NCBI RefSeq assembly: GCF_963675165.1
Contig: NC_087390.1
Location: forward strand, 1,197,501 to 1,261,500
Direction of reading: 5' to 3'
DNA: 64,000 nucleotides
From: Halichondria panicea
Lineage: Eukaryota; Porifera; Demospongiae; Suberitida; Halichondriidae
Numbering within the stretch: position 1 is the stretch's first letter; each line of letters starts with the position of its first letter. The notes below the pieces were generated by a model that saw nothing but the letters and a program-made list of their open reading frames with translations, had not been told where the DNA came from and did no database searches. The position numbers were made by a program, and so were the translations under genes. Positions 25,755-61,930 of this stretch are shown piece by piece.

Positions 25755-28498
25755 CTATTTTTTTTGAAAATATTCTTCAATTCTGGTGGCTGTGTCCTCT
25801 TTTCCCAGACCGCGGACAATAGCTAGAAGTGCTTGAACAGTTGCTTCTTTTTGTTTCTTTTGTTTCCAGTATTTCAAGCATACTTGCACTGCAACCCGTA
25901 TGCCTTCACTGACTTCTGCTTTCTTTACATTACCTTCTTCATAAGGTTCTAGTGACATTGCGGCAACAAGAAGTGCAGAACTATCAAAATAAGCAGCCAA
26001 ATAAATCAGATCTTCATTTTTTATCACTGTATCTCGCATTGAAGCTCCCAAGCTTTCTGTGGGTCCAGCACCACCTAATGAAAAAACATATTTCTGTATC
26101 ACAAAATGACAGTATCACAAAATAATAATGTAAGTTTGATCGCTATATTAATTATATAATAATAATAATAATGCAAGTTACGTTCCTGATCAGGGTGTGG
26201 TCAGTGGACTATATTCATACCTGTACATAGCTCCTCAATAGCCGTAGCCACATCATTCCGCTGAACTGTTGATGCTCTAAGACTCCGACATATATCAGAA
26301 TAGGTGAGAGGAGGGCCAGTCTTCAAGCGAGCACCTATCATTTCACGCAGACAATCCCTGTTCCTGTGATTGTCATCTTTTATATTTTGGAGGGTGCCAG
26401 GATGTAATCCCAGATCAAGTCCCAGGTCGAACCAGTTTCCAGCGGCATTTATCAAGTTCTTGTAAACAGAATTCAAATCATCACCGAGAGTCAGAATTGA
26501 GGCTACAAAATTACAAGCAAATGATAAGCACAATGTCATATACATGGTTCGTGCATGTTCTATGAAATAGCTGATGAGCAACTTGTATATTATCAGTCTA
26601 CACTAAGACTCCCGGAAGTGTGTATTATACAGTTCATTTGTCAATTTATATGGCCCCTTATGGGAGTTAATGATATTCATAGTTCGCGGTAGTAACAAAA
26701 ACAGTAGCACTCCTTTTGTCAAGGATAACTTTTCATCAGAAGGTGCCTATAACACTAATAATGTTGAATAAATAAGCTACTAAATGTTATAAAAATGAAA
26801 GCACCACGGGTGCTGGACTCAACATTAATATTTTTTGCAATCATTATTTTGCATGCAATCTCAAAGAGTGGGTAATAATCGACCATGATTGTTGTTAAAA
26901 ACGATTGATGCCAAAAGTTCAAGTCTAAAATTAATGGCTGCATCAGGAAAGCCTAGCAGCTCTCTTCTCACTCTTGCAGGTACCAATAGCTATAGCGTTC
27001 TAGTGCAAAGCTAACTACTAAGTAGAGTAGCAACACTCAGTGAACAAGTATTGCTACGGACTCTTCTGAAAAGGCTACAATGGCATTCCAAGTAAGCAAA
27101 ACTAGGCATAACTTGAGAACAAAGCTTTATTTTGCAAATCCACAAATACCAATCCAAGAAAACATGACTAGAAGCCTATAGAAACTCTTACTTGCACTTC
27201 ATTGATCCTTGAGCAGTTGTAACAGTACGTCTACACACACACACACACAGACACAGACACAGACACAGACACACAAACCGTATACCTCGCTTGCGCATGC
27301 ACACCGAGGCATAATAAAGTGGTAAGAAGGAACTGAATAGTTACATTGAATGAAAGAAAACTGGTGATATTAATTTTTTCTGTGACTTTGATTTCTGGGC
27401 AAATCAGTACTGGGGATGCTGGACAGATACAGATAGGCCTAGACTATATAGACAACACTGGTAACTACAAGTAGACCACTAATGACCCAGGTTTGACTAA
27501 GATACTGTGTTTTGCAAGTTGCTTGTCATTGTGCACAGATGGGCGGTGCCTTTTAGTGCACTTCTATAACTAAAACAACTGCCATACTTGCTCAAATCAA
27601 CAGACTGCAAGTCAACAGAGTACTGCATGTGCATATACACTAACATGCAGCTTAGCTAGATCTAACTAATATAAGTTAGCAAATTAAATTTTGTTTGCTG
27701 AATAGACACATTCACTTTACTACAGACTCAGTAGTACTATAGACAACGCCCATTTACTGTGCACAATGGCAAGCAACTTGCAAAACACATGTACAACAAA
27801 GTAAACATTGACAAAAGTGAGTAAGTTTAGCTTTTGCCTACTTGCCACTTGAGTGTCCAGAGTTTCTTGAAACTGCCTAGATAGCTAATAGAATGCTAGA
27901 AGTTAGTCTTTGCAAAGAAATAAACAGCATCGCTTTGCCAATATTTTTTTTATAGAAGGTCTTGTGTACTAACATTGGCTAAATTATTGGATATATCCTG
28001 TTTGGACTTGGGCAAATTAGTACTCCCCAGCCTGTGGCAAGTTCATGAATACTATAGCTACTAGTACTGTGACTCTGGAACCTGGCTTGCACTTCAGGAC
28101 CTGGGTATAGATGCTGGAAAAACTGAAAAAAGTTGTTTCTGTTAGTAAACAATGACGTAACAGAAGTTATAATTAAATTTACAGAGAATTACTGTTACAG
28201 TAGTATTTACAAGCCACAAACAGAATTGTTGTGCGCAAGGAAATTTACTCACTATGATGCATAGCCACAAGTACATATCTGAAGCCAAATTTGGAGTCTT
28301 ACTGTAGACTGTTATATGCATACATAAACTTACTAAGCGTTGGTCCAGGGTTTGCTTCAATATCTCCTGACTGTAACAGTAAGCGGAACTTCAGTAACAG
28401 TATACACAGACTGAGAGTGGGGCCGGGGGGCAACATCAGTCGATTAGTGCTCTGAACTCTCACTTGGAACTTGGTTGGCTTTTCTTGAGTCTCAAAAA
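25755..28498 (-). CDS. Death-gene unit 1: 2A leader, death domain, death-like C-terminus (type A)
   Basis: This is a small death-fold gene. The exons are a 2A exon at 28498-28334, a death-domain exon at 26502-26221 and a C-terminal exon at 26074-25755, all phase 1. From the ATG at 28436 they give 234 aa. The 2A exon encodes a Leu-rich stretch (LSLCILLLKFRLLL) then QSGDIEANPGP; it is the only copy with Ile before the Glu. The death domain starts ASILTLGDDLNSVYKNLIN and has the usual W-x-x-L-G-x-x-LG pattern. No linker exon is seen, but the phases allow death to C-terminal splicing directly. No EHD-type leader exon was found upstream; only about 50 bp of EHD remain (28,515-28,566). Function is unknown; death folds normally mediate homotypic signalling assembly. 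Confidence 0.75.
26940..27325. repeat. Interspersed repeat R-CA, copy 1
   Basis: The phrases CTAGTGCAAAGCTAACT, GCATAACTTGAGAACAAAGC, CTAGAAGCCTATAGAA, a CA microsatellite and GAGGCATAATAA appear in order. Better-matched copies lie at about 47,195-47,550 and 60,150-60,530. It is intronic in death-gene unit 1. The family is unknown and no open frame is seen. Confidence 0.65.
27505..27790. mobile_element. Short inverted-repeat element in unit 1 intron
   Basis: TGTTTTGCAAGTTGCTTG at about 27,510 and CAAGCAACTTGCAAAACA at about 27,769 are inverted. Each continues inward with TGTGCACAGATGGGCG and CGCCCATTTACTGTGCACA. The enclosed DNA is non-coding. Confidence 0.65.
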
Positions 28499-34259: not shown

Positions 34260-36102
34260 TCACATCATGGTTGGACATGTATACTGTTTTTCAAAATATA
34301 AATGAATTTTGTCGGCTGTGTACTTTTGTCCCAGACCGCGGACAATAGTTAGAAGTGCTTGAACAGTTGCTTCTTTGGGTTTCCTTCTTTTCCAGTATTT
34401 CAAGCATAGATGTACTGCAATCCGTGTGCCTTGACTGAACTCTGCTCTCCTTACATCACCGTCTTCATGAGGGTCTAGTGGTATTGCGGCAGCAAGAAGT
34501 GCAGCACTATCAAAATAAGCAGCCAAATAAATCAGATCTTCATCTTTTATCACCGTATCTAGCAATGAATTTCCCAAGCTCTCTGTGAGTCCAGCACCAC
34601 CTAATGAACAATATTATTATTATATTTACAGAGTCACTATAATTGTATATTGTGCTGTTGTACTACAGGCACATAATTAATTTATAAGTGATATAGGATG
34701 GAACATTCAATAATGACTCTAACCCTCCAAACTAAGTAAAAAGTGAGACATACAGTACCTCTCCAAATAAAGCTGTGCTTCTTCTATTCAGATTCTTATT
34801 TGAAAAATTTTACAGCGATCTTTCAAAGATGCGTCCTTTACTTTATCACCACTCACACAAACTACCGATTAGCTAACTCACTGGTTGGTCCAGGAGTCGT
34901 TGTGGATAATGTTTGCCTCATAGATGGCCCTAGTGAAGTATCGTCCTCTGAGTAATTGGATGCTATTGTATTTAAGCACATAATTATTATGTAAGCTACG
35001 TTCCTGGTTAATTAACTATATACCCATTCACATACCTTGACTATACTCATAGAAATGCTTTTAGCGTGGTCGTAAGTTAGCCTCATGACTATTCATACCT
35101 TTACATGCCTCCTCTATAGCCTCAGCGACATCATTCCGATCAACTGTTGGTGCTCTGAGACTCCGACATATGTCAGAATAGGTGAGAGGGCCAGTCTTCA
35201 AGCGAGCAGCTATCATTTCACGTAGACAGTCCTTGTTCCTGTGATAGTCATCTTTTATATCATCGAGGGTGCCATTACCTAATCCCAGATCAAGTCCCAG
35301 GTCCTTCCAGTTTCCAGCGGCTTTTATCAGGTTCTTGTAAACAGAATTCAAATCACCGAGAGTCAGAATTGAGGCTACAAAAATTACAAGCAAATTATAA
35401 GTACACAATGTCATACACATGGCTCGTGCATGTTCTGTGAATAGCAAGTTGTATTAATAGCATACATAAAGAGACTGCTTACCAAGCGTTGGTCCAGGGT
35501 TTGCTTCAACATCTCCTGACTGTAACAGTAAGCGGAATATCAGTAACAGTATACACAGACTGAGAGTGGGGGGCAACATCAGTCGATTAGTGCTCTGAAC
35601 TCTCATTTGGAACTTGGTAGGCTTCTCTTGAGTATCAACAACTAGAAAGCAAGAGTATCCTCGATGTAATCGTTGCTTCTCTCCCAATAATATTCCCGGA
35701 GTGTCGATGAGGGTTATACTCTCGAGGACTGGACTCGGCAAAAACGAAGCCTCGAATCGGCTCAAGAAAGTGTTTCCAAACGACTGCAAGGCACCAAACT
35801 GTCGTGTTGGGTCGACAGCTAAAGCATTTCCAGGAGTGACTTGCTCATTAGGGCCATGCATGATGGCCATGAAGCGATCGGTGGTGGGTTCAGGTCCAAT
35901 CCTAATACCAGGGAAAGGTTTTAGAAAGCACTAGTAGTCTACATCACAGCATAAAAAAAATGTAATGACTAGAACTAGATAGTCTGATGTGTATGTGTAT
36001 GCATAACTAGTAGTTAGCTATACATACGATATCGATATGTGTGCATATTGTGTTTTTCATAATACCTTCTGATAGGGAGCTCGAGTGGAGTTCTTCAAAC
36101 AT
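34260..36102 (-). CDS. Death-gene unit 2: leader, 2A, death domain, linker, type A C-terminus
   Basis: Five phase-1 exons: leader 36102-36066 (MFEELHSSSLSE), 2A exon 35641-35483, death domain 35374-35099, linker 34947-34882 and C-terminus 34600-34260. They sum to 879 bp, 292 aa. The 2A exon reads KPTKFQMRVQSTNR, then the hydrophobic MLPPTLSLCILLLIFRLLL, then QSGDVEANPGP, with skipping expected between the last G and P. The death domain begins ASILTLGDLNSVYKNLIKA and includes LTYSDICRSLRAPTVDRND. The linker is Ser/Thr/Pro-rich (LSTTTPGPT). The C-terminal domain (DLIYLAAYFDSAALLAAAI, KYWKRRKPKEATVQALLTIV) is death-like. An EHD fragment (35,656-35,915) lies between leader and 2A exon; the frame can also be read through from it into the 2A exon. 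Function unknown; an innate-immune adaptor is an inference. Confidence 0.78.
35656..35915 (-). pseudogene. EHD GTPase fragment in unit 2
   Basis: It matches the EHD exon from about PGIRIGPEPTTDRF to GEKQRLHRGY; the P-loop and everything before it are missing. The upstream junction is the same as in unit 3 and the giant gene, so the three share one deletion event. The frame is open and continuous with the 2A exon. It could be intronic (if the leader splices to the 2A acceptor) or translated from the internal ATG of MAIMHGPNEQ. Confidence 0.75.
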
Positions 36103-36277: not shown

Positions 36278-38063
36278 TCATGGTAGCGAATTGCAAAAAT
36301 TTTCAATGCTAATGGCTGTGTCCTCTTTTCCCAGCCTGCGTACAATAGTTAGAAGTGCTTGATATGTTGCTTCTTTGGGTTTTCTTCTTTTCCAGCATTT
36401 TAGGCATACTTGTACTGCAATCCTTGTGTTCTCTGCTCTCCTTACATCACCTTCTTCATGAGGGTCTAGTGATATTGAGGCAGCAAGAAGTGTAGCACTA
36501 TCAAAATAACGGGCCAAATGAATCAGATCTTCATCTTTTATCACCGTATCTAGCTTTGAAATTCCAAAGCCTTCTGTGAGTCCAGCACCACCTAATGAAC
36601 AATATTATATTCACAGAGTATGTATCACAATGTAATAATTATACATATAAACATTCGCATTTATTTCAGCAACGGTTGGCGCTTCTCTAAAAAATTATGC
36701 TGATGCTGACGTGGCGCTGTAATTACATCATCAATTACGGTAATTATAATGATATAAACCAAGTAAATTAATACAGTGCATGCAATAATGGCCCCTCCAA
36801 ACTAAGTAAAAGTGAGACATACAGTACCTCTCCAAATAAAGCTGTGCTTCTTCTATTCAGATTCTTATTGTATAGCGATCTTTCAAAGATGCGTCCTTTA
36901 CTTTATCACCACTCACACAAACTACCGATTAGCTAACTCACTGGTTGGTCCAGGAGTCGTTGTGGATAATGTTTGCCTCATAGATGGCCCTAGTGAAGTA
37001 TCGTCCTCTGAGTAATTGGATGTTAAACAATTTTGTATTATTATGTAAGTTACGCTCCTGGGTTAACTATATACCCATTCACATACCTTGACTATACTCA
37101 TAGAAATGCTCGTAGTGTGTGGGCGAGGTTAGCCTCACGACTATTCATACCTGTACATTCCTTCTCTATAGTCGCAGCGAGAACATCTCGATCAACTGTT
37201 GGTGATCTGAGACTCTGACATATTTTAGAATAAGTGAGAGGAGGGCTAGTCTTCAAGCGAGCAGCTAGCATTTCACATAGATAGTCCTTGTTCCCGTGAT
37301 AGTCATCTCTTATATCTTTGAGGGTTCCATGACGTAATCCCAGGGCAAGTCCCAGGTAGAACCAGTCTGCAGCGACTTGTATCAGTTTCTCGTTAACAGA
37401 ATTCAAATCATCGATAGTCAGAATGGAGCCTACAAAAAAACGAAAAAATATACATGGTTTATACAAGTTTTATGTGCATACATAAAGAGACACTGCTTAC
37501 CAAGCGTTGGTCCAGGGTTTGCTTCAACATCTCCTGACTGTAACAGTAAGCGGAATATCAGTAACAGTATACACAGACTGAGAGTGGGGGGCAACATCAG
37601 TCGATTAGTGCTCTGAACTCTCACTTGGAACTTGGTCGGCTTTTCTTGAGTATCAAACACTAGAAAGTAAGAGTATCCTCGATGTAAACGTTGCTTCTCT
37701 CCCAATAATACTCCCTGAGTGTCGATGAGGGTTATACTCTCGAGGACTGGACTTGAAGCCTCGAATCGGCTCAAGAAAGCGTTTCCAAACGACTGCAAGG
37801 CACCGAACTGTAGTGTTTGGTCGACAGCTAAAGCATTTCCAGGAGTGACTTGCTCATTAGGCCCATGCATGATGGCCATGAAGCGATCAGTGGTGGGTTC
37901 AGGTCCAATCCTAATACCGGGAAAGCTTTAGAATGCTGCTAGACTAACTTATTAAAATAGATCACAGAATAAGAAACACTAGAACTAGATGTGTATGCAT
38001 AACTACAGTACGATATGCATGCTTTATAATACCTTCTGATAGGAACACAGCACCAAGGTTCAT
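36278..38063 (-). CDS. Death-gene unit 3: leader, 2A, death domain, linker, type A C-terminus
   Basis: Exons are leader 38063-38033 (MNLGAVFLSE), 2A exon 37659-37501, death domain 37429-37151, linker 37007-36942 and C-terminus 36591-36278: 849 bp, 282 aa, all phase 1. The 2A motif is intact (QSGDVEANPGP). The death domain starts GSILTIDDLNSVNEKLIQV, closer to the giant-gene death domains than to unit 2. The linker and flanking intron (about 36,795-37,020) are almost identical to unit 2 (about 34,735-34,955), showing recent duplication or conversion. The C-terminal exon ends NFCNSLP, a different tail from units 1 and 2. An EHD fragment lies between leader and 2A exon. Confidence 0.78.
37675..37924 (-). 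pseudogene. EHD GTPase fragment in unit 3
   Basis: The same EHD segment as in unit 2, missing about four residues near RFEASSPVLES, with DTQG in place of the EHD switch DTPG. The frame is open into the 2A exon. It has the same left junction as units 2 and 5. Confidence 0.75.
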
Positions 38064-38169
38064 GAAGCAGTGAGTTTCTACACTATCTATATCTATGGTT
38101 TCACTGTGGAGGTTCGAACTTGACCTGTCACATGATTTGTCTCTGACTGGGTGAGGATCTTTACCACTT

Positions 38170-38544: not shown

Positions 38545-40077
38545 TCAATAGTTTTTATGAAAGTACCTTTCAATGTTTCTAACTATGTCCCCTCTTTTCA
38601 GCTTGCGGACAATATCTAAAAGTGCTTGAAACGTTGCTTTTTCAGGCTCTCTTTTCTTCCAGCATGACAAACAGTAAAGTACTGCCTTTTGTGCACTGGT
38701 ATTGTCTTTTTTCATTGCATCAGATTTTTCGGCGGGGGTTAGTTCTAGTAAGTCAACAAGAAAGTCAACACAGTCGAAAAAAGAAGCCAAATGAACGAGA
38801 TCAGATGATGGTATCTCCATGCTGTAAGAGTTGACTGCTAGACCTGAGCTTCTCTTTGTTGAACTTTCTTGGATCCCGTCAAGTTCACCTACAGAACAAT
38901 GATAAAAGCCTTAAACCTTATCAGGAAATCAAACAATGTTCCATTGTACAGTGACACTATAATTATAGCCAGGAGTGCACGAATAGCATACAATTGTAAT
39001 AAGTATAATAATACCGTATAGCAGGTAATTTCACGAATGAAGCGTCGACCTTGCCTACCTTTACCTACAGTGCAACCAGCAACCACGAAAATATTACCCC
39101 CAAAATGTCTCAATATTGCTGAACCACGAATATTTTGTCCCCCGAAAATTACCTATTATACATAATGATTGCAAGTTACGTTCCTGATCAGGATGTGGTC
39201 AACTATATCTATTCACACATACCTAACTAAGTACTGATGTTTATCCATTAGAAATAACATTGTAAGTGTGGGTCAAAGCTATCACTATCAGTGCATACCT
39301 GTACATGCCTCCTCTATAGCCTCAGCGAGGACATCTTGTTTAACTGATGGTGCTCTGAGACTCTGACATATTTCAGAATAGGTGAGAGGGCCAGTCTTCA
39401 GGCGAACAGCTATCATGTCACGTAGACAGGTTTGATTGTCTCGATGTTTATCACTGATATTATTGAGGATGTCAAATGCTAATCCCAGATCAAGTCCCAG
39501 GTCGAACCAGTTTCCAGCGGCTTTTATCAAGTTCTTATAAACAGAATTCAAATCATCGAGAGTCAGAATTGAGGCTACAAAAATTACAAGCAAATGATGA
39601 GTACAATGTCGTACACATGGTTCGTGCATGTTTTATAAAATAGCTGATGAGCAACTTGCATATTATATACGCATACATAAGGAGACACTGCTTACCAAGC
39701 GTTGGTCCAGGGTTTGCTTCAACATCTCCTGACTGTAACAGTAAGCGGAATATCAGTAACAGTATACACAGACTGAGAGTGGGGGGCAACATCAGTCGAT
39801 TAGTGTTCTGAACTCTCACTTGGAACTTGGTAGGCTTTTCAAAAACTAAAACGTAAGAGTACTTTAAAGCAGTTGAATATTGACCAATTAGTAGTACCAT
39901 TGGTTTCGCATTGAAGTCGCCATTGTTCATGTATGGTGAGTGGAAATCTCCAAAGAGGTATGTTTGCTCTAGTGGGAGGAGCCTCTTTCGATACGTTTGC
40001 TTGAGGCCATCGATGACATTGTTGTAGACGTCTGCTACATCACATTGTTTCTTGTTGCCTGATAGCCAAGAAAACAT
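38545..40077 (-). CDS. Death-gene unit 4: EHD N-terminus fused to 2A, death domain, type B C-terminus
   Basis: One continuous open exon (40077-39696) begins with the EHD start MFSWLSGNKKQCD. It runs 68 EHD residues to GQYST, then leaves EHD just before the P-loop GKTT and continues in frame through KPTKFQVRVQNTNR, the hydrophobic stretch and QSGDVEANPGP. Death domain 39574-39299 and C-terminus 38888-38545 follow: 1002 bp, 333 aa. The acceptor for EHD (CCTACAG then GACCC) is kept at about 40,110. The C-terminal exon is type B (DLVHLASFFDCVDFLVDLLE, CWKKREPEKATFQALLDIVR) and matches the giant gene's last exon. Translation could yield an EHD fragment and a separate death protein through 2A skipping. 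The leader copy at about 40,293 lacks an ATG. Confidence 0.72.
39012..39163. mobile_element. MITE, ACCGTATAGCGGG family, copy 5 (shortened)
   Basis: The left end TACCGTATAGCAGGTAATTT and a degenerate right end CCCGAAAATTACCTATTATA enclose the GTCTCAATATTGCTGAACCA interior of the subfamily seen at 3360 and 44,440. It is intronic in unit 4. Confidence 0.65.
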
Positions 40078-40373
40078 GGTCGCCTACTAGTATATACTGG
40101 GAGGGTCCTGTAGGGGAATACGAATAAAGCATTAGAATACCCGAACCATAGATTATAAAACATATACATGTATAAATTGTACATGACTGTACGCCACGCC
40201 CTTGACTGTACTACATACACAAAAAAAAAGGAACAATTAGATCTATGTGCATGCATTATCACAATACGTTATGTGTGCATTTAATACAATACCTTAGTTT
40301 CTGATAGGCACAGCAGCAAGGATTAGCCCTCTAACTATATATCTATGGATTAGCTAGCTAGCTACATATAGAC

Positions 40374-49600: not shown

Positions 49601-52600
49601 TTCCCAGGATGTTTGCGTCAAGACCGGGGTAATCTCCCTTGAGCTTTGCCTGAACAACTTCTGCGTTGGCTTGAATTTCCAACTTGTCTTGGTAAGTGCC
49701 CACTAGACTCACGACAGCTTGAAGACATCGGAAATGTTCAACTTTATCGGAAATCTTGGAATAATCAAGATCCGAATCAGTGACGTGATGGCTAATGGCT
49801 GAAAGAATTTGGGAGAGGGTCTCTCGAATTGTATACTTTGCTTGGTACGGGGTGATTTTGTCTTGGTCACGTTCGTAGGAAACTTCATAGAGCTCATCGA
49901 GATCTTTATCGAGAGGGAAGAAAGCGAGAAACATCCCTGGGCCTTTGCTCAAAAATGGAAGCATCTCCATGAAGCCAGGCTGTCCACCTATGTCAATGAT
50001 GTTGAGCAAAACTGTGCCTACCAACTGTTCCCTGTAATTGCCGCTCTTGACAATATCTCGAAGGTTTTCAATGATCTTGTCGACTTTGGTTTCTGAAGCC
50101 TTTGGTTTGGCTGGCTTGCTTGATCCTTCCTGGGGAACTTGCTTTGTGCTTACATCTGAGGGCTGAGCTTCGTTCGTGTCGACATTGGTTTCTAGAGCCT
50201 GTGATTTGGGTTGTTTGCTTACTTGCTTTTTGCTTGAATCAACTTCATCTGTAGGATAAGTTTCATAATCTTCTTCAACGCGATCATCTTTGTGTCCTTG
50301 CTTTTTGCCTGGATCCACTTCATCTGTGGGATGAATATCAGAATCTTCTTTTGGCTTTGAATCATCTTCAATGGGATCATTTGTTGGATCAGCAGATTTG
50401 ACTACAGTTTTGGAAATGGCGACTTTTCCAATTTGCTGAAGGCCAATCATGTAAGTGAAAATCAGTTGTGCTTCATTGTCAATATCTGTGGAGGCTTTGA
50501 GAATCAATTTGGAGTCACTTGACAACACAGCCAGAACTTGATTACACTCGGCAAGAAGAGTGCTGCAGCGTTTTCTGTCTTGTGGTGGGATTGATACCAG
50601 GTTAAGTAGGTGACCCAGGAGACGTTTTTGGAAGGTGGTTTTGCCGAGCCCTGAAAGGCCGATTAGGTACAGTTTGAGGTAGCGGAGGTTGATGGTGTTC
50701 TCTGTGTCTCTCAACAACTCGTTCAGCTTGTGTACGTACTTCAACTGCTCTTGAACAGAGGCTGAAAATGAAAGGTACATGCATATTATAAATTTAAAGG
50801 TTTGATTTATTGAAAGCATCGCGGGTGCTGATGTCTCGGTGGAGGCGCCAAAGCTTTATGGTAAATAAAGCTACAGTACTAGTACTAGCATTAAATACTG
50901 TATACCGGGTAATTTTCAGGGGGCAAAACATTCGTGGTTGAGCAATTTAGTCACTTTGTGGATAAAATACTTTTGTGGTTGTTGCTTGCACTGCAGGTAG
51001 CTAAAGGTAGGCAAAGTCGCTTCATTTGGGTGTCTATATTATAGAGTTGTCTCTGTTATAATGTTTGTGCAGTTATATTGTGTTACTAAGATATGTTGCT
51101 ATGCCCTCGGGATATAAACTAGTTGTAACACGAGCACAAGGGATGTATGGTATACATATTGCACTGAAGCACGAGCGTAACATACCCCTATAACCTATAA
51201 ATTCTTTCAGACAACGAACGGCCTGGTCTCAAGGCTAGGGCCTTTAGGCCCGAGATCATTAGCTCTAGATTCATTCTTCAGGCTTGTATCATTATCAACT
51301 CATTAACGGGCGTCACCGCTCTCCCTGAAAGAGGATAGGACCCAAACTTATCTACAGTTTTGTTCTGCCAGTGGAATTCCACCGGCTCCAATTAGATTTC
51401 AGTATTTGATCACACCCACTTAACTTTACCACGTGTGAATTTGCACACACTAGATTGACTGAAAGGCGTGGCCAACACAAGTGATATTCATCGCTATTGG
51501 CAAACACTCACTTAAAAATAAATGAGATTCATAATGCTATTGCGTAACAGCCAGAACAATGTTGATAGGCTTGGTTCCCGTCTAATCAACTCACTGCATG
51601 CACTGGATAGCACGTACGTAGCTACGGTTACATTATCATGGCCACACCCAGTTTATTACTGAGCATGAACAATTATTGATGAGTCATGCAGGAAACACAT
51701 TGTGCTTGAAAAACAGATGACCTTTTTTTCAGTAAAATATTTTTAGCTCCCCCCTATCAAGAATCCTGGATCCGCCCCTGGACTCTGGAAACACATGTAA
51801 ATAGAGGACAATGTAAAAGGTGTGGTTTGAAATCAAGGTAAACCACAATCTAAACATGGGGGTGTGCCCATCGGATCCAATCAGATGCACAAATTAGGGC
51901 AAAAGTATCATGGTAATAATCATGCATGCATTGATTAGTGAGAAAGAAACTTTTAAATACACTGTCTGTCATCTATCGTATAGCGGGTATATTCGAGGGT
52001 ACAAACTTTCGCAGAAAGACCGTTTGAGAGGATTTCGCAGATTTAATTGTGAACTTTCAACCTTTGGTGCTTGCATGAACGTAATATTAAACATTCGTGG
52101 GTACATGTATATACATGAATGTTCGCAATCCCATGCATGCACTCACCAGGCTTCTTGATTGATGAATCCTCTTCATGTGTCCTTTTTTTACCCACAGGAT
52201 ACAGGGAGCCACTAAGTTTTCTATTGGCATCTACAAGTGCTTGGCATGCATTCTCCAATTTCGTGACGTCTTTCTTGGATATTTGAAGATCTTGCTCTGC
52301 TGCTTCTAGCTCGTTCTTCTTCAATTTAATTGGCTCTTTTAATAGCTGCTGCAGTTCACACCAAAGTGTTTGAGATAACTTGCTAGCTTGAAGATCTTGC
52401 TCTGCTGCTTCTAGCTCGTTCTTCTTCAATTTAATTGGCTCTTTTAATAGCTGCTGCAGTTCACACCAAAGTGCTTGAGATAACTTGCTAGCTACATCTT
52501 TCAAGATCTTCAGCAGAGAATTCTGAACATGACTTGAACAAAATAAAGCAAGCTCTTTAAGTGCTGTATTAAGGCTTTCATAATCTATTTCGAACACCTT

Positions 52601-55600
52601 TTGTTTGTGATCAACCACCACATCATATTTAATTGTCTCAGAAAAGAGGATGTGATACCGGAATTCTTTGCTCGCTGTCATGTTTTTCTGCCTTATCCTC
52701 GTGGAAAATCTGATAGCAGGTTTAATAACTTCATCACTGACAGCTGTGGATTCTACAAAGTCTGGTTGCTCGACAGATGGAAATGCAAGGGTCTCTAGTA
52801 GTTTGCTCGGATCCACACGACTAAAGTCGAGGAGGTCAGTGAGCTGGTCATGGCGTAATTTCTGCTTGAGATCATTTAGTGTCTGTTTTAAATTTATGGA
52901 TAAGGTTTTTTTGATTTGTGCAACACCAACATTCCAAGTTTCAGCAACCTTGCCTTTCGCGGTTTCAAGCATGGTTTGGTGGGTAGCCAGTATACACTGC
53001 AATTCATCATCGTACTTTTTTTTGATATTTACCACTTTGAATAAACATTGTATACTGATGTCATTCTCAAGTTTTAAAGTAACTACTTTCAGTTGAAGAG
53101 AAAAAGATTGAGCTAATATTTCTGGGAAAGAGGTTTTAAACTCGCAAGTTTCTTGAAAGAATTGATCGAATTTTTCCACCTGAGCGTTTTGTTTCTCTAC
53201 ACTATTCTCCTTCCCCTGTATATCAAGTTCTTGTACTTTCTGAGTAATGGAATCTTCCATCTTTGACATTTCCCCACGACAATCGTCCACAGCACTCTCC
53301 AAAATAATTTCAGGACTATTAACACAGAGTGCCCACAGAAGCTTTGTTTTAACTTCTGGAAATCGACTAAATTTCTCAAGAACCTCAGCTAGTTTCTTTA
53401 CATTCTTTGGGGTGTAGTTTTTCAAAGAACCAATGGAATCCTTTGCAGGTGTTGATTGTAAATAATAATAGTTATAATAATACATGTCTTTGGTTACAGC
53501 AGAAGGATCTCGTAGCCATTGTTGTGCTTTTTGTGCAAATATAGCGCTAAAGCATACCGTTTGCTCTATTGATATTCCAATTTGCTCAGCCATTTCCATT
53601 TGAAGTTTTTCGGGAGTCCAGGAACATTTATTCCCATCATAGCACAGGTCGTATTTGTTGATGAGCACTAGTATTCTGTTTTGTTTTTCCATCAGGCCAG
53701 GATGCAATGTTTTTATACTCTCAACAAGCTCAGTCACTGTACCCTTAGGTACGTCATTGGCACTGACAACAAGTATGATGGCTGCTAGGCTTTTTAAAGC
53801 TGTTTTTGCAGCAGTAGTTGTTTTTTGGCTAGTAAATATATCACAGGTGCCAGGCATATCAAGAATTTCAGGAGCAAAAGTTTGTCCAATCTCTGACAAA
53901 ATAGCAACAGATGCATGGAGAATGAGTTCAGTGTACTGAATCTCACTTCTGCGATCCTCGGTATTCAGTTTCACAAGAAATGATTTAACAGATTTACCGC
54001 CTGATGCAAGATGAACTAAGCCATCACTATATTTTTTTCTTCCAAAAAGTTCTCCATTCGGAGATGCTGGATCGTGTACAATTCGGATTGAGCTGACCGT
54101 CTGCCTTTGAAACGATGATGGGAGAAAAGGCGAGCCTATAAAGGAATTAGCAGTTGTACTTTTGCCAGCATTAGTTAAGCCAACAAGTCCTATTTGGACT
54201 TTGCCACATAGTAACGCTGAATGGATTCTTTCGAGCTCTTGAGAATGAGTGGACATTTCGAGCTCCTTAGCTATCGATACAACTGTTTCAATTGCTTTGC
54301 TGGTATTCTCGACTTTTTCTCGTACTGACTCATTGCCTGCTCATGATAATGACATTAATTTTTCAGTTTTTAATAAAATATAAACTTACAAATTTTGAGG
54401 TGAGTATTTCGGAGAGCTGTTAAGAGATCACTGTGGAGGATCTTGTTTTTTTCTAGCACAGAAATAAACTCCAAATACTTATTTCGATAGGCTTTAACAC
54501 ATTGTAATATAGCTGTATACAGTCTGATTCCCTTTTCCATTTTTTTTGTGCCAGGTAGTGTACGTACTTCTTCCATAAGTGCTGTAGAAATAAACCCTTT
54601 GCTGTGAAGAGATTGAGCGATGTTCAATGGGTCGCTGGAGAGTCCTCCACACACTTTGTTGCAGCACTCCACCAGAGTGGTATAACCGTGGTTAAAACCT
54701 TTTGGAAAAAACACAATTAATTATTTTAACGGAAATCAAAGAGCATGCACTAAGATACCTTGGCTAGTACTCCTGATAGGCCTGTGCCAAAATAATATTC
54801 CGGAATAATTAATAGGCAGTCTTTTTTACAATTTGAATAATAGGCACTGTGAAAACAGTTTAATGATTTCATTGAGTTGCACATGCGCAGTAGCTCAGAA
54901 CACGCCCACATTTTACATGGCAGTAAACCTGATGTTAGTCCAATCAATGTTGAGACCATAAAGTTTGTTATTTCGCTGCTGAAATTTTTTTGTGCTATAT
55001 ATTTTATAGGTGTTTTATTTCGCTGCGATATAATTATGTTAAATAATTTGAATAATAGCAATTAATAGGGTGATGAAGTTGAATAATAGGCTGATCAAGT
55101 GTGAATAAATAATAGGTGAATATTTGGCACAGGCCTATAACTCTAGCCTCGAATCCAGGCCGATTAAAATACGGCCTGGTCTCTATTGCATGTGTAATTA
55201 ATCATAGGCGTGGTCCATACATGCCCACGTACTATCTAATATGTGCCTAGCTAGCTAGCTGTGGCACTCTATGGTGTTGTCGAGAAGGCTTGCACTCTAG
55301 TCTGAAGCCAAAAGAAGCTCTCATTTGTACAGAAACCAAGTTCAAAACATCACGATTATTGTACGTGGTCTCCTAGGACCATTTATAAAAAAAAAAAGTT
55401 AACTCTCTACAATCAAACATGTTATAGTTAGAATTAACATGGGCATAAGCTATGTGTTTTAGTGTCCCAAAGCTCGAGGGATGAGGGACACTATAATCAT
55501 AGATACTGAATGCACATGTTCTAACTGATTTAGATCCCAAAACCTATTGGCTACTAGAAATGCACTATAGCTTAGGCCACTCCAAATGAGACTGTAGTTA

Positions 55601-58600
55601 CTAGATCTATAATCTTATCAATTGTTCCTGGTACGGATCACTTCAGCTGCAACTCTAGTACAAGGCCACGTGTAGCTAGTTATATAGCTGCTTCAAGCTT
55701 CTTAGCTTTTACTCGACAATGAAGCTTTAACATCAAAATCTGCCACTATTTAAATCAAGATATTGTTGTGTGAAGGCTATCCATGCTGTAAACGCAGTGC
55801 TCTGGCATCCAGGTGAGTAGAAAAGCCAATCACAAACAAACAAACCAACCGACTACTATACCCGTGGCCGCCCACGCGCGCCTCGGGTAATGACAATACA
55901 ATGTATAATGCCCAGAGCAATCTATATAGTACTGGTATTATAGCTCATAGTTCCCTGCTAAATACACTCAAATGCATGGGATCTATAATGTAGAAAAAAG
56001 TTTACAAACAAGTACAAAAAACATTTTGTGAAAAAATGGGGAAGAGTATAGGGTTGGAAGAGCATGCGCACTGAAGTAACGAAAACAAGATTGTGGGTTG
56101 GTATAGTCTTCGCATGCTCAACTGGTTGAGGGGCTCAATCTTTGCGATCTTTAACAGTTGGGTCCAGCACTATACTTCAAGTTTTGGTGGGCAGGGCTTA
56201 TCTGTAGCTGTATATATAATTATCTATAATTATAGTCTCAAATTTTAATTGCATATCAAATTAATGTTTCAGTGCTGGTCCCTGGAAAAATGAAAAGCTC
56301 GAAAACCTCATTCGAATGCGTCATTCTTATATTATACAAACACATGCAGGTTGATAGTCAAGTAGAGAATTAAACATCTCGTATAAAGAAAGAGGTGTAA
56401 CGAGAAGTAGTGCTGGACCCAACTGTTAAAGATCGCAAAGATTGAGCCCCTCAACTAGTTGGAGCATGCAAAGACTATACCAACCCACAATGTTACTTCA
56501 GTGCGCATGCTCATCCAACCCTACTCTTCCTCATTTTTCACAAAATGTTTTTTGCACTTGTACATACTATAGGGATTTATGGCAGTAAACCCACTAAGCC
56601 CTAGGGCGAAGTGGTTACGCAATGTATTATGCACGCATGCTAAGCTGGACAGTAGCGAATTGAAGATGTTCAATTGAAGGTTTCTAGCCCATCTGATAGC
56701 TAGCTATATACTCTATAGCCTGCTATAATATTATATGCTAACAAAGGACTCACATGCAGCCTGCAACAGTGTGGATGACAATCATCTGAATTAACAAAGT
56801 AAAAGCTGACACTATATATAGATTACAGGCCACACACATCTAATACTAGATGAAAGTCTAAATGTCAAAGTTGCAACAATTAAACCTATTATACAGCTAG
56901 CTATAATATATCTATAATCATAGCTCTGCATATGTATGACTTTAATATAATAATAATCTTTGCATTCAGAATATTTAGTTTTACAACAACATTTACGGGT
57001 AATTTTGCACATGCACAAACAGGCCTCCTTTTCTTCATTCGAGGCCTGTGGAAGGAGGCTACATCCACACAAACTAAACTGATTAGCTAATTAAGGTGAT
57101 TTACTCACTGCTTGGTCCAGGAATTGTTGTTGTGGACAATTTTTGCCTCTTAGATGGTCCAGGAAAAATATCGTCATCTGAAAGTAAGTAATTGGATGCT
57201 GTTATTGTGTATTTAAGTACGTAATATGTAAGTTACGTTTCTGATCAGGTTGTAAACTATGTACTCATTCACATACTTAAGCTGATGTCATAGAAATACT
57301 CATCTCACTATTCATACCTGTACATGCCTCCTCTATAGCCTCAGCGAGGGCATCTAGTCTAACTATTGGTGCTCTGAGACTCTGACATATCTCAGAATAG
57401 GTGAGAGTGGCAGTATTCAAGCGAGCAATTATCGTTTCACGTAGACGGGTTTCATTATCTTGATATTCATCACGAATATTAATGAGGGTGTCATGGCCCA
57501 CTTTCAGCTTAAGTCCCAGGTTGAACCACTTTCCAGCGGCTTTTATCAGTTTCTCGTAAACAGAATTCAAATCATCGATAGTCAGAATGGAGCCTACAAA
57601 AATTAAAAATAAATGGTGGTTTACACACACGCATGTTCAATATTAGCTTCGATCCCAGGCCGAGTTTTCACTTTTATAACGGTTAGGCGAACAACTAGGC
57701 CTGGTACTAGTTGTCTGCGCATGCGTCAGTCGTTCGTCAGATTCTGACGAATAGATATTCTCGTTCACTTTCGTGACATTTTTATTCGTGTACTATCGTT
57801 TTCAAAACTAAAAAACAAAACTAAAAAACATTGCAATGTGAACGTTGCTAGGATTGCCAGGAAAAGAAAAGCGCGAAAAAGCGAAGAAACAAGAAATTCG
57901 GCGAGTGCATAACTCCAATCCGTTACAACGTCATTCACATGTACTGTTTCATAATTATTATTTTTGTTTTGGTACTTTTCCTGGCCAATCCTTTCACATT
58001 GCAAGTAGTGATGTTAATTATGTGCATTTTTTGCAGGCTATAGTTATTTTTTTATAACCCCTTACAGTGTTGAGCAAACACGCAAGTGTTGGATGTGTGG
58101 GTGGAAGTATTCCAAGTTATTCATGACCAGCAGATAAAGACCAATGACTGCGTATTTACCCAACCTGCATGTATTTCGATTTTAAAATTCCTTATCAACA
58201 GTAGGCCACTCGACTGTACATGTTCATGACGTTGTAACGGATTGGAGTTATGCACTCGCCGAATTTTTTGTTTCTTCGCTTTTTCGCGCTTTTCTTTTCC
58301 TGGCAATCCTAGCAACGTTCACATTGCAAATGTTTTTTAGTTTTGATTCCCTTTCTTTTTTCATACAGTAGTACATTAATGATAAGATAAAATTAATGTG
58401 ACGTTGATTAATTTGTCATCGTCCTGTAATCTTGTTGAAGATAATATATAAGTGATCGTTGGACAGAATTATATTATACTCCTCAATAGTCTCGATCCCA
58501 GGCCGCACTTCACTCAGGGAATTGAGGAGTTAGCCTCCTTCACCGGCCTTCTTTTCTCAATAATGAAAGTGAAATACCTATGAGGAACATCAAGAAGCAA

Positions 58601-60451
58601 GAGAAGTTCAAGAAGAGAAGACAGGACTGGTTATTCAGTATTTTATTCAGTCATTTATCTATGATAAAAATAATGGCAGCCATGTATATACTGTAGATGT
58701 ACTTCCAAGTGCAAAAGCATGGAGGCCTATGGTAGATCCAGTCAGTGCATACGTAAATAACATACCTGAAGTGAGAGAATGGAGAGCTGAGCTGAAGAAA
58801 GGAGGTTTTGTGTTTATCGATGTCACAGCCACGCCCACCTCATAAGTTGCCATGTGCGTTGCTGTGGCAGTCATTTAAAGATGGCGGAATTGCGTAGGTA
58901 AGAAAAGTGGAGCCTGAGAGGTCATCTGCCTCTTGGAAGCGAACGCAATTCTGAGAAAAACGCCCATGGTCCGGGTTCTAGTCGACTAGAGGCTGTATCT
59001 AGAATCTTCTGAACATGTCTGTACAAGGAGGAAATGCTTTCCAAGAAAGTTACTAACTTACTTAGTCAGTCAGACGAAAAGCGGTGAAATATGAAAATAG
59101 TGCAATTTTTCAAATATCAATAGTAATGCATGTGTATATTCATTGACTATAATTTCACACATTTAGACAGCTATCTGTCAACTCAGTTTCTTGCTGTGGC
59201 CTTTCCCTGTAGAAATAGAGCAGTCTAAACACGAGTCAAATTTTGTGCAATAATTGAAAACACACACAACTGCACTGTCAATCCTATGTACAACCTACTG
59301 GTTGTACTAAATAATTATATAGATTACAGGCCACACACATCTAATACTAGATGAAAGTCTAAATGTCAAAGTTGCAACAATTAAACCTATTATAGCTATA
59401 TATCTATAATCATAGCTCTGCATATGTATGACTTTAATATAATAATAATCTTTGCATTCAGAATATTTAGTTTTACAACAACATTTACGGGTAATTTTGC
59501 ACATGCACAAACAGGCCTCCTTTTCTTCATTCGAGGCCTGTGGAAGGAGGCTACATCCACACAAACTAAACTGATTAGCTAATTAAGGTGATTTACTCAC
59601 TGCTTGGTCCAGGAATTGTTGTTGTGGACAATTTTTGCCTCTTAGATGGTCCAGGAAAAATATCGTCATCTGAAAGTAAGTAATTGGATGCTGTTATTGT
59701 GTATTTAAGTACGTAATATGTAAGTTACGTTTCTGATCAGGTTGTAAACTATGTACTCATTCACATACTTAAGCTGATGTCATAGAACTACTCATCTCAC
59801 TATTTATATACCTGTACATGCCTCCTCTATAGCCTCAGCAACATCATTCCGATCAACTGATGGTGCTCTGAGACTCTCACATATTTCAGAATAGGTGAGA
59901 GTGGCAGTATTCAAGTGAGCAATTAGCATTTCACGTAGACAGGTTTCATTATCTCGATGTTTATCACTGATATTAATGAGGGTGTTGGGGCTCACTTTCA
60001 GAGCAAGTCCCAAGTTAAACCATTTTCCAGCGGCTTTTATCAGTTTCTCGTAAACAGAATTCAAATCATCGAGATTCAGAATGGAGCCTACAAAAATTAA
60101 AAACAAATGAAGAAATAGTTTATAGCCACACCTGCTTCACAATCATTAAGTTCACAAATGGCTACTGCTTTAACAGCTTTTTTCTGACTCTTGTAGCTAA
60201 CAAAAAACTAGCGCTTTAGTGCAAGGCTAACTTATAAGTTGAATAAAAACTTTGTGCAAACAGAATCTGATGATGCTACGAAAGATTCTGAAGAGACTGC
60301 AACAGCCTTCAATGTGAGTCTAACTAGCCATAACTCGAGAAAGAAGCTTTAGTTTGCTAATCCAAAATCCAATTGCAAGAGAACGTGGCTAGAAGCCTGT
60401 AGAAGCTGTTAGTTTTCGTCGCATTGCAACCGTTGAGCACTTGTAGCTGGA

Positions 60452-60491
<40 letters not shown>

Positions 60492-61930
60492 TACCGTCCG
60501 TATCCCTCATGCAGCTCCGAGGTATAATAAAATAGTTGCTGCATAAAACCTACAGCTCTGTGACTGTCTCTATAGCTATAGCTATTATAGCTCGATCTGT
60601 GTATTACTATATTCTTTGTCTATAATTATTATACTCACTCAAGATATTTTTCTGACAGAAATTTAACCTAATAATTTTGTGCAAACTAGCAGGCCTCCTT
60701 TTCTTCATTGAGGCCGGCTACATCCACACAAACTAAACTGATTAGCTGATTTACTCACTGGTTGGTCCAGGAGTCGTTGTGGACAATTTCTGCTTCTTAG
60801 ATGGTCCAGGTGAAGTATCATCATTGGGTGCTATACAATTGTGTAATATGTAAGTTACGCTCCTAATCAACTATACCTACAGGTATAGAAATGCTCATAA
60901 TAGTGTGGTCGTAAGTTAGCCTCATACCTGTACATGCCTCCTCTACAGCCTTAGCGACATCATTCCGTTCAACTGTTGGTGCTCTGAGACTCTGACATAT
61001 TTTAGAGTAAGTGAGAGAGGAAGTTTTCAAGTGAGAAGCTAGCATTTCACGTAGACAGGTTTGATTGTCTCCATGCTTATCAATGATATTACGGAGGGTG
61101 TGATGTCTCATTCCCAGGGAAAGTCCCAGGTTAAACCAGTCTCCAGCGGCTTTTATCAGTTTCTCGTAAACAGAATTCAAATCATCGTGAGACAGAATGG
61201 AATCTACAGTAAGTTCAATGACATAAACACGGTTATGTGTGTATATACAATTTTTATACTCTAAAAATAAAGTGCACTGAGCACACTAAAATGTTGCGTA
61301 AAAAGTGTGCTATACTGCTAACAGCAAATGCACACAAGGAGACGCCGCTTACCAAGCGTTGGTCCAGGGTTTGCTTCAACATCTCCTGACTGTAACAGTA
61401 AGTGGAATATCAGTAACAGTATACACAGACTGAGAGTGGGGGGCAACATCAGTCGATTAGTGCTCTGAACTCTCACTTGGAACTTGGTCGGCTTTTCTTG
61501 AGTCTCAAACACTAGAAAATAAGAGTATCCTCGATGTAAACGTTGCTTCTCTCCCGATAATATTCCCTGAGTGTCGATGAGGGTTATACTCTCGAGGACT
61601 GGACTAGGCAAAAACGAAGCCTCGAATCGGCTAAAGAAAGCGTTTCCAAACGACCGTAAGGCACCAAACTGTCGTGTTGGGTCGACAGCTAAAGCATTTC
61701 CAGGAGTGACTTGCTCATTAGGCCCATGCATGATGGCCATGAAGCGGTCGGTGGTGGGTTCAGGTCCAATCCTATACCAGGGAAAGCTTTAGAATGCTGC
61801 AACTACTATTCAATAGCTAGATCACAGCATGGCATATACATAAGAAATAGAAGAAGTGTATGCACAACTATACAGTACGATATGCTTGTACTTTAATACC
61901 TTCTGATATGCACACAGCACCAAGGTTCAT
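43866..61930 (-). CDS. Giant death-gene unit 5: 2A, 3 death domains, CARD-like, dynamin-like GTPase, ROCO-like GTPase, Ig-like, 3 death folds
   Basis: Gene model inferred from compatible phases. Exons (minus): 61930-61900, 61511-61353, 61203-60928, 60830-60759, 60087-59812, 59669-59601, 57593-57318, 57177-57109, 54698-54390, 54336-52147, 50761-47970, 47822-47600, 46687-46566, 46419-46138, 45037-44839, 44751-44650 and 44203-43866. They sum to 7785 bp with no internal stop: 2594 aa. Order: leader MNLGAVCISE; 2A ending near residue 60; death domains at about 64-409; CARD-like 410-512; dynamin-like 513-1242; ROCO-like 1243-2173; Ig-like 2173-2247; death folds to the end. No stop-bearing exon follows the first three death domains before the CARD-like exon, and the CARD-like exon has no ATG, which supports one gene. 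A two-gene model stays possible, with the cut between 57,109 and 54,698. Expected role: cytosolic sensor or signalling scaffold (inference). Confidence 0.6.
44440..44640. mobile_element. MITE, ACCGTATAGCGGG family, copy 6
   Basis: The ends ACCGTATAGCGGGTAATTTT and ATTACACGCTATATACGGTA are inverted, with the GGGGGACAAAATATTCGTGG interior. It lies in the giant-gene intron about 10 bp from the linker-exon donor at 44,649. Confidence 0.78.
45142..45400. mobile_element. MITE, ACCGTATAGCGGG family, copy 7 (diverged)
   Basis: The left end is worn (TTACCGTACATGCAGTGCG). The right end is good (TTTTTACCCCACGAAAATTA then CCCGCTATACGG). It is intronic in the giant gene. Confidence 0.6.
47195..47550. repeat. 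Interspersed repeat R-CA, copy 2
   Basis: It closely matches the copy at 60,150-60,530: GCGCTTTAGTGCAAGGCTAA, AGCCATAACTCGAGAAAGAA, GAGAACGTGGCTA, a CA run and GAGG(C/T)ATAATAA. It lies in the intron between the Ig-like and death exons. Confidence 0.75.
47600..47822 (-). CDS. Giant gene: Ig-like exon
   Basis: A 223-bp exon. FKWTRKGKKVGGG supplies the core Trp, and DHCDGFYTCEVSK gives the D-x-G-x-Y-x-C pattern of an immunoglobulin F strand. The first cysteine of the disulfide is not evident, so it is an I-set-like fold at best. It joins the death exons in phase. An Ig domain between a GTPase and death domains in a presumably cytosolic chain is unusual. Confidence 0.65.
47970..50761 (-). CDS. 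Giant gene: ROCO-like (Roc-COR) GTPase exon
   Basis: One 2792-bp exon. Walker A is YLIGLSGLGKTTF. The G3-like motif is NIIDIGGQPGFMEMLPFL, typical of Roc-like GTPases of multidomain signalling proteins. Between them sits an acidic/basic low-complexity insert with two copies of a PTDEVD-x-x-KKQ repeat. The second half (GTLLYYPDIEDKESYF, NRVICSPNVVFNSISLLV, then GYVPIGLFCALISKLV) fits a COR domain: low-load linker, strand, and winged-helix-like parts. It ends with Cys-rich CRCAKHSKVEDVCLCKLGG and phase 0. No kinase or LRR is seen. Confidence 0.75.
50896..51040. mobile_element. MITE, ACCGTATAGCGGG family, half copy
   Basis: The left part ACTGTATACCGGGTAATTTT with GGGGGCAAAACATTCGTGG and GCTTGCACTGCAGGTA is kept; no right end was found. 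It lies in the intron between the two GTPase exons. Confidence 0.6.
51978..52110. mobile_element. Diverged ACCGTATAGCGGG-like fragment
   Basis: ATCGTATAGCGGGTATATTC followed by GGGTACAAACTTTCGCAG and, later, ATTCGTGGGTACATG. It is only loosely related to the MITE family and shows no clear right end. Confidence 0.4.
52147..54336 (-). CDS. Giant gene: dynamin-superfamily GTPase exon
   Basis: One 2190-bp exon. G1 is VGLTNAGKSTTANSFIG, G3 is LDMPGTCDIF and G4 is LVLINKYDLC. QTVSSIRIVHD, shortly after G1, holds the likely G2 threonine. After the G domain comes a long helical, coiled-coil-rich stalk-like region. Near its end a 105-bp (35-residue) tandem duplication repeats SKLSQ(A/T)LWCELQQLLKEP and KLKKNELEAAEQDLQ. 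A basic KKRTHEEDSSIKKP tail leads to the ROCO-like exon. Dynamin-like proteins remodel membranes or self-assemble; here, beside death folds, it may drive assembly (inference). Confidence 0.8.
54390..54698 (-). CDS. Giant gene: CARD-like death-fold exon
   Basis: A 309-bp phase-1 exon, helical throughout, with SSDPLNIAQSLHSKGFIS and the later KYLEFISVLEKN. This pattern (an I-x-x-x-L-x-(S/E)-x-G-(F/L)-(I/L) turn, then a YxxFxxVL helix) fits a CARD or a related death fold. It has no ATG at its start and joins in phase to the dynamin-like exon. Assignment to CARD rather than a plain death domain is tentative. Confidence 0.55.
54776..55138. mobile_element. Inverted-repeat element, about 360 bp
   Basis: The ends ATAGGCCTGTGCCAAA and TTTGGCACAGGCCTAT are perfect inverted copies. 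The interior is AT-rich with repeated GAATAATAGG. It sits in the long intron upstream of the CARD-like exon. Confidence 0.8.
56009..56563. mobile_element. Long fold-back element, about 555 bp
   Basis: Arms of roughly 150-170 bp are inverted: left (AGTACAAAAAACATTTTGTG, TGGGTTGGTATAGTCTT, AACAGTTGGGTCCAGCAC), right the complement. The loop of about 230 bp is non-coding. It lies in the giant-gene intron between 54,698 and 57,109. Confidence 0.8.
56812..57305. repeat. Segmental duplication, copy A (pairs with 59,318-59,800)
   Basis: Nearly identical to 59,318-59,800, including the linker exon, its acceptor and flanking intron. The main visible difference is a small deletion near 59,395. It marks duplication of a death-linker cassette within the giant gene. 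Confidence 0.85.
57109..61203 (-). CDS. Giant gene: three death domains with linkers
   Basis: Three 276-bp death exons (61203-60928, 60087-59812, 57593-57318), each followed by a 69-72-bp linker (60830-60759, 59669-59601, 57177-57109), all phase 1. The domains share LNSVYEKLIKAAG(D/K)WFNLGL, then a loop with TL-x-NI, then LTYS(K/E)IC(Q/E)SLRAP and end EEACTG. The WFNLG motif and the C-terminal LRAP helix fit a death domain. Linkers are PGPSK(K/R)QKLSTTT, with no regular fold expected. The second and third death-linker pairs share recently duplicated flanks. Confidence 0.85.
57818..58348. mobile_element. Fold-back element, about 530 bp
   Basis: Arms of about 120 bp are inverted: left GAACGTTGCTAGGATTGCCA and GCATAACTCCAATCCGTTAC, right the complement. 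Both arms give the same basic open frame (MLGLPGKEKREKAKKQ), which I take to be an artefact of the repeat. A TCGATCCCAGGCCG motif lies outside each end (about 57,650 and 58,492). Confidence 0.75.
59318..59800. repeat. Segmental duplication, copy B
   Basis: The partner of 56,812-57,305; it covers the linker exon 59,669-59,601 and its surroundings. A third, older relative of the linker end is at about 60,690-60,840. Confidence 0.85.
60150..60530. repeat. Interspersed repeat R-CA, copy 3
   Basis: It matches 47,195-47,550 along most of its length and carries a longer CA array (about 60,450-60,490). It lies in the intron between the first and second death domains of the giant gene. Confidence 0.75.
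61353..61511 (-). CDS. Giant gene: 2A exon
   Basis: After the acceptor TTTCTAG the exon reads FETQEKPTKFQVRVQSTNR, then MLPPTLSLCILLLIFHLLL, then QSGDVEANPGP and TLG. This matches the 2A consensus D-(V/I)-E-x-N-P-G-P preceded by a Leu-rich helix. 2A peptides make the ribosome skip the Gly-Pro bond. The hydrophobic stretch right before it resembles the signal/2A arrangement reported for sea urchin NLR-like proteins. An ATG at 61449 could start a form in which the hydrophobic stretch is N-terminal. Confidence 0.88.
61527..61786 (-). pseudogene. EHD GTPase fragment in the giant gene
   Basis: The same EHD segment as in units 2 and 3 (MAIMHGPNEQ to RLHRGY), open and in frame with the 2A exon, with DTQG in place of DTPG. 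It lies between the leader at 61,900-61,930 and the 2A exon. It shares the deletion junction next to CTTTAGAATGCTGC with units 2 and 3. Confidence 0.75.

Follow-up and report, generated by a model that had tools for sequence, protein, structure and literature searches.

A host-encoded StopGo/2A motif ahead of a tandem family of death-domain genes in the sponge Halichondria panicea

Analysis of a 64,000-nucleotide stretch of the 131-Mb Halichondria panicea genome (C14:1197501-1261500; hereafter the window, within which positions are counted from its first base) revealed five exons that encode a StopGo/2A motif in splice frame with death-domain exons. The window is one corner of a larger array, its five exons being five of the 47 found. 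We consider it likely that the array consists of host innate-immune genes of one tandem, exon-shuffled family, with StopGo/2A separating an N-terminal leader from death-domain proteins. Judged from sequence, the 2A motif is host-encoded, under selection and part of a large family, and the best reading is that two proteins are probably made from one message.

A six-frame scan of the whole window found five NPGP motifs and no others, all on the minus strand, with the D codons beginning at 28364 (DIEANPGP) and at 35513, 37531, 39726 and 61383 (DVEANPGP). The exons that carry them, copies 1 to 5 (28334-28498, 35483-35641, 37501-37659, 39696-39845 and 61353-61511), finish in ACG-CTT-(G/A)/GTAAG, a phase-1 donor (CTTA/GTAAG in copy 1; exon ends are marked by a slash), with last bases at 28334, 35483, 37501, 39696 and 61353. 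Copies 3 and 4 were placed by the motif scan and a splice model and copy 5 by the scan and its splice sites, and copy 2 is part of a predicted NCBI model (P0050, LOC135347346 isoform X2). Downstream of each lies a minus-strand death-domain exon, DD1, with a phase-1 TGTAG acceptor: 26221-26502 in copy 1 (TTTTGTAG acceptor, phase 1-1), 35099-35374 in copy 2 (splice model and protein match), 37151-37429 and 39299-39574 in copies 3 and 4 (splice model) and 60929-61210 in copy 5. Because donor and acceptor are both phase 1, the 2A motif and the death domain can join in frame in all five copies. Both the five GDVEANPGP exons (GDIEANPGP in one) and their frame with a death domain, claimed in the preliminary description, were thus confirmed.

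The DD1 donor is also phase 1, and in copies 1 to 4 it joins a second minus-strand death-domain exon, DD2, which carries the stop codon (25755-26074, 34260-34600, 36278-36591 and 38545-38888). The DD2 exon of copy 2 matches residues 245-356 of P0050 at 100%, that of copy 3 follows from the splice model, and that of copy 4 is of a divergent type. Starting from the nearest stop upstream in the 2A frame, the spliced copies comprise 275, 354, 339 and 335 codons, the figure for copy 2 coming from a splice model without the short DD1-DD2 linker EDDTSLGPSMRQTLSTTTPGPTS of P0050; the stretch that contains this linker is an exact match at 34880-34966 (minus strand, approximate ends). Both DD2 exons scanned exceeded the PF00531 cut-off of 22.6 bits (copy 1, 28.2 bits; copy 4, 33.7 bits). 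The scanned DD1 exons fell below the Pfam Death cut-off, and DD1 is a divergent death domain; among the matches listed, DD1 relatives elsewhere exceed that cut-off, for example at C14:4904192. A structure model of DD1 was weak (pLDDT 57.7), its top five PDB matches being death domains with E values of 0.7-1.6; it counted against our preferred explanation and was set aside as fold evidence. Copies 1 to 4 of the window are genes of two death domains only.

Copy 5 has a different arrangement on the minus strand: three DD1-type exons (60929-61210, 59813-60091 and 57319-57597, with ends taken from the protein matches) come first, and after them a death-fold-like exon (54388-54702) and then a dynamin-like GTPase (52145-54334; PF00350, 33 bits; 68% identity to P0049). 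The death-fold-like exon had no Pfam match, is 76% identical to P0049 and, in its frame, 33-37% identical to the exon that follows 2A in a sister family on C2. By analogy with LOC135347354 (P0049), an NCBI model whose EHD-type head leads into DD1, a death-fold-like stretch and a dynamin-like GTPase, copy 5 probably runs on as a single gene through the death-fold-like exon and ends in the GTPase.

Elsewhere in the window, a 991-codon minus-strand frame at 47883-50855 contains a P-loop-like GLSGLGKTT and shows weak Roc similarity, and by eye an Ig-like exon may occupy 47565-47822. Minus-strand exons at 3945-5823 resemble a mitochondrial carrier by eye, and plus-strand exons at about 61950-63100 resemble what we take to be tubulin.

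Across the genome, a degenerate 2A DNA pattern occurred 97 times and, read backwards as a control, not once, which excludes chance; 97 is a lower bound, as the pattern omits GTG for Val and missed the C2 family. With two copies in which the first core residue is N and at least two sites in the C2 family, the total is about 100 2A sites. Used as a protein query, the 2A exon gave 51 rows, corresponding to 47 copies of the C14 type (two pieces of a C6 copy being merged) and three matches on C2. Of these 47 copies, 43 are on C14, all but one of them between 0.50 and 1.63 Mb. For every one of the 47, a same-strand DD1 exon follows 63-1838 nt downstream, in a tally that used 69 of at least 150 DD1 matches and omitted most of those on C1 and other distant ones. 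A membrane exon lies upstream in 40 of the 47 (the three C2 2A matches were set apart, and 40 of 47 exon-1 matches were entered, seven on C2 being left out); the seven copies that lack it are the five window copies, C14:1314051 and C13:6488347. The earlier view that 2A heads an array of death-fold genes thus holds for the link to DD1, but the array includes full NLR genes and not small death-fold genes alone.

One such gene could be read completely, on the minus strand at C14:544422-551484 (L077 and L100; copy 549660). It has 1460 open codons in six exons joined at phase 1 throughout: exon 0 (193 nt), exon 1 (189 nt), the 2A exon (150 nt), DD1 (276 nt), DD2 (414 nt) and a last exon of 3161 nt. 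A hydropathy scan found one hydrophobic segment encoded in each of exons 0 and 1, and the last exon has a NACHT match of 61 bits followed by a tail that is LRR-like by eye only. From its sequence, the fully read array gene is an NLR in which two predicted membrane segments come before 2A, a pair of death domains, NACHT and an LRR-like tail. The leader, 2A, DD1 and DD2 of predicted NCBI LOC135347261 isoform X3 (P0024) agree with this model; P0024 has an extra DD1-DD2 linker and a different C-terminus. The structure model of P0024 was poor beyond two long helices and was dropped as fold evidence. The membrane segments rest on the hydropathy scan and this low-confidence model, a point counted against the favoured explanation.

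The leader and 2A are common to NCBI models with different downstream parts, preceding NACHT in P0018 and P0019, a Roc-like region below the Pfam cut-off in P0042 and P0047, and a far-downstream Death domain in P0044; downstream modules likewise vary among predicted models P0018, P0042, P0047, P0049 and P0050. A ZU5-like part of P0044, seen by eye, was absent from the domain-scan listing and was discarded. As a symmetric cassette (phase 1-1), the 2A exon can precede differing downstream modules with the frame intact. Of the ten NCBI proteins fetched that contain 2A, nine start two exons further up, and the tenth (P0049) has an EHD head. Together, the separate membrane exons and the upstream NCBI starts suggest that, in the usual case, a predicted membrane protein of about 174 residues would be made from the part upstream of 2A. 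Weighing against this explanation, P0029 and P0043, among the 12 NCBI proteins fetched, have neither leader nor 2A.

By their sequence, the window genes are an odd subclass in which a fragment of an EHD (EH-domain) GTPase gene replaces the membrane exons. Just upstream of four of the five window 2A exons, minus-strand EHD fragments identified by protein match are open in frame into 2A (35652-35921 for copy 2, 37667-37927 for copy 3, 39868-40080 for copy 4 and 61519-61788 for copy 5); the fragment in copy 4 is an EHD N-terminus that retains the EHD start codon. The EHD remnant of the remaining copy, copy 1, is frameshifted, which we counted against the explanation. The presumed source is an EHD open frame on the same strand at 23809-25338, which has no 2A and in which EHD_N, Dynamin_N and DUF5600 all exceed their cut-offs. 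The 5' flank of EHD is also partly duplicated, with matches at 61852-61934, 37922-38067 and other places. A second copy of the 5' portion of the adjacent EHD gene, joined in frame, has probably taken the place of the membrane exons. In copy 5 a donor (AGAAG/GTATTA) and an acceptor (GTATAG/GATTGG) flank the step into IGPEPTT, as in P0049, and the predicted model of copy 2 (P0050) starts in the EHD fragment and continues through 2A, DD1 and the short linker to DD2. Among five EHD fragments chosen because both ends read in one frame, a choice that partly accounts for their whole-codon gaps, pN was lower than pS in all ten pairs (e.g. 0.027 versus 0.085), so the upstream EHD codons look constrained.

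These upstream sequences bear on whether 2A instead acts as an N-terminal signal of the sea urchin type, with translation starting at MLPPTLSL and the unskipped product entering the secretory pathway and the skipped one staying cytosolic. The window copies do have an ATG 22 codons ahead of D (24 in copy 1) followed by a hydrophobic run, and a 26-residue sea urchin NLR 2A sequence has both activities according to the passages of PMC4981915 compared. Against such a start, 21 of the 47 copies have no Met within the 40 codons that precede the motif, the great majority have the upstream membrane exon, the 2A-bearing predicted NCBI models start upstream (that of window copy 2 included) and the EHD codons appear constrained. 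If translated from AUG, 20 of the Met-less copies must start upstream, placing 2A internally; the twenty-first, L031, is the one copy of the 47 with in-frame stops upstream of the hydrophobic stretch and counts against our explanation. We therefore consider this alternative unlikely and reject it as the general case, and the suggestion that 2A is a signal-like N-terminal sequence is not supported for most copies; an MLPP start is possible for the seven copies without a membrane exon.

Conservation of the motif favours a leader separated by 2A. The 47 copies, most of which first came to light through a pattern that requires the motif (a motif-free protein search added only two copies with N to the C14 type), all keep (D/N)(V/I)ExNPGP; E, N, P, G and P and the G before D are invariant amid synonymous changes at several core codons. 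Variation in the core is limited to D to N in two copies, V to I in four and V at x in two, the natural GNVEANPGP copies being L091 and L092 (C14:1031493 and C14:3451354). Within the array, with L031 and L075 left out of the 47 and the upstream segment readable in 42 of 45, pN/pS was 0.62 upstream, 0.51 in the hydrophobic run and 0.40 in the core. In this comparison of core and flanking codons, which had been proposed earlier, the ratio drops only from 0.62 to 0.40 over few sites; we counted it against the explanation and dropped it as the main proof of selection, using a comparison with the C2 family instead.

This sister family (L089 and L090, C2:7.74-7.84 Mb; two of its three 2A matches were read) has homologous leader exons, then DVESNPGP and a death-fold-like exon. 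That exon had no Pfam match, and a CARD assignment for it and for window 54388-54702, made by eye only, was rejected. When a single C14 copy was compared with two from C2 (only one of these for exon 0 and the core), dS was 1.1-1.2 and dN 0.22 in leader exon 1, and pS was 0.81 and dN 0.24 in exon 0. The last 14 codons up to NPGP differed by eight synonymous and three nonsynonymous changes, none in GDVE or NPGP. Near synonymous saturation, the C2 family yet has both leader and motif, which points to purifying selection and upholds the earlier claim that the motif is selected.

The same data speak to a reading in which the hydrophobic stretch is a membrane anchor only and NPGP an inherited or chance tail without recoding. 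Recent duplication does keep the copies alike, there being 42 distinct 171-nt stretches among the 47; set against this are the empty reversed control, the persistence of the motif through near-saturating divergence, its recurrence in families with other leaders, and the fit of every copy to the published expanded consensus (D/G/C/N)(V/I)ExNPGP, N variants included, in the passages of PMC12846837 compared. This reading appears quite improbable to us.

At 39 further 2A loci, a death-domain exon was present in the fetched downstream stretch of 27 (two of these, L031 and L035, being C14-type) and was not found in that of the other 12 (L009, L010, L011, L012, L013, L014, L015, L032, L034, L036 and two C2 loci); among the matches listed, a NACHT match lies beside L009 at C1:10205304. 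Many further loci open with M..VELWRARIGL(F/Y) or a sequence like it, and hydrophobic segments and 2A come next. A query of this type, to which P0001 is identical, gave 17 database matches (P0001-P0017), and the 15 that reach the motif (all except P0012 and P0013) keep D(V/I)ELNPGP. We also observed that this initiator-proximal sequence, or near variants of it, is common to otherwise unlike leaders (L017-L029, L033, L094 and L097-L099). At L032 (C6:3064858), 2A (LLIMCGDVELNPGP) lies within a 494-codon frame in which no death domain was found. At L011, L012, L014 and L015, retrotransposon-like frames show 2A and then a PHD-like cysteine motif, as judged by eye.

2A is reportedly found in non-LTR retrotransposons, and in those of the APE type it is said to lie within an element that has endonuclease and reverse transcriptase parts. 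The 2A exons could accordingly be remnants of such elements, which also bear 2A in H. panicea, as the four loci with the PHD-like motif suggest. The scanned pieces of array gene L077 and the full-length NCBI protein P0018 gave no reverse transcriptase or PHD match, the array genes do not lead from 2A into PHD, endonuclease or reverse transcriptase, DD1 follows all 47 exons, and the core codons are unlike those of the retrotransposons. We rejected a retrotransposon origin of the living genes as highly improbable; an ancient capture of 2A from a retrotransposon is possible.

In the mechanism that we propose for the common form, if the genes are expressed as modelled, the two leader exons would supply two predicted membrane segments, and a third hydrophobic stretch would come from the 2A exon, with LLLQSG-D(V/I)EANPG/P at its end. 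Most ribosomes would release the leader of about 174 residues at Gly and resume at Pro, so that the expected products are a leader with NPG as its last residues and a free cytosolic death-domain protein with P as its first; this protein may be an NLR, a Roc-like protein, a dynamin-like GTPase or a protein of two death domains only. Ribosomes that form the bond would yield a fusion tethered to the membrane, which may itself be of physiological use. Because the hydrophobic stretch should still be in the exit tunnel while NPGP is decoded, it is likelier to work once the leader has been released, or as part of the unskipped fusion, than as a signal at an earlier stage. The earlier proposal of either two products or a switch between secretory and cytosolic fates keeps its first part as the best reading; for the second, we infer that a free versus a membrane-held signalling protein suits the anatomy better.

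That the sponge elements skip is expected by analogy. The LLLQSG hexamer upstream of the motif fits, by comparison, the LLLLSG-like class of PMC12846837; in the passages of that source compared, motif 6, said to resemble this class, is one of four that proved active when tested, in its case in lysate, and variants with N as the first core residue reached about 90% or more in vitro. This class fit, the active relatives and the sea urchin NLR 2A all point in the same direction. Tentatively, and with more doubt than conviction, we suggest a repertoire-wide StopGo switch, in which a mobile, symmetric module of membrane leader and 2A stands ahead of many effectors (NACHT-LRR, Roc-like, dynamin-like GTPase, DD-DD and death-fold-like), the efficiency of skipping determines how much death-domain protein is membrane-held relative to free, the cell could read its translation state from that ratio, and new leaders such as the EHD fragment can be swapped in. 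If skipping efficiency does place the death-domain protein, it would be a translational control point in animal immunity.

Among the papers listed by the literature search, none dealt with 2A in sponge NLRs; Rao et al. 2025 (a eukaryotic 2A survey, Cell Reports) or Odon 2013 (on 2A in APE-type non-LTR retrotransposons) may already list sponge cases. In the passages compared, PMC5009743 concerns frameshifting, and a 2026 survey calls cellular use of StopGo rare (PMC12846837); here, one animal genome has about 100 2A sites, the largest groups being tied to death-domain genes. Its natural series of leaders, effectors and core variants (GNVEANPGP) should be useful for probing the role of host 2A.

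Compared with the viral LLLLSG-like class of StopGo/2A, the sponge elements are alike in LLLQSG and D(V/I)EANPGP and differ in lying in intron-containing host genes with a leader. APE-type non-LTR retrotransposons have the same core motif and such elements appear to be present in this genome, whereas the sponge 2A considered here lies in spliced host genes. The NLR repertoire of another sponge, Dysidea avara, includes Death/CARD-NACHT-LRR genes with membrane segments (PMC12909245, passages compared). In this respect it resembles the array, but a 2A between the membrane part and the NLR goes unmentioned there, neither NPGP nor "skipping" occurring in the main text of PMC12909245; the present genes offer an explanation for sponge NLR genes that bear membrane segments.

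The closest precedent, as had been anticipated, is SpNLR2A of the sea urchin Strongylocentrotus purpuratus, where NLR 2A combines skipping with signal activity and dual targeting was proposed and shown with reporters (Roulston 2016; passages of PMC4981915 compared). In both systems an expanded family of death-domain NLR genes begins with a hydrophobic run rich in Leu and then D(V/I)ExNPGP, and the sea urchin order of death domain, NACHT and LRR is found in copy 549660 (LRR by eye) and not in the window DD-DD genes. In those passages, the sea urchin signal tested was N-terminal and 26 residues long and others were said to lie within the N-terminal region, whereas in 40 of the 47 sponge copies 2A is not a signal peptide at the very N-terminus; it usually lies behind a two-segment membrane leader, at about residue 170, in a symmetric exon common to non-NLR genes, and the window leader is an EHD fragment. 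Among the literature passages compared, none describes a 2A placed internally after a membrane leader, a symmetric cassette, its sharing across effectors or the EHD subclass. In sum, the kind is known from the sea urchin NLR 2A, of which the sponge array is a larger, modular variant.
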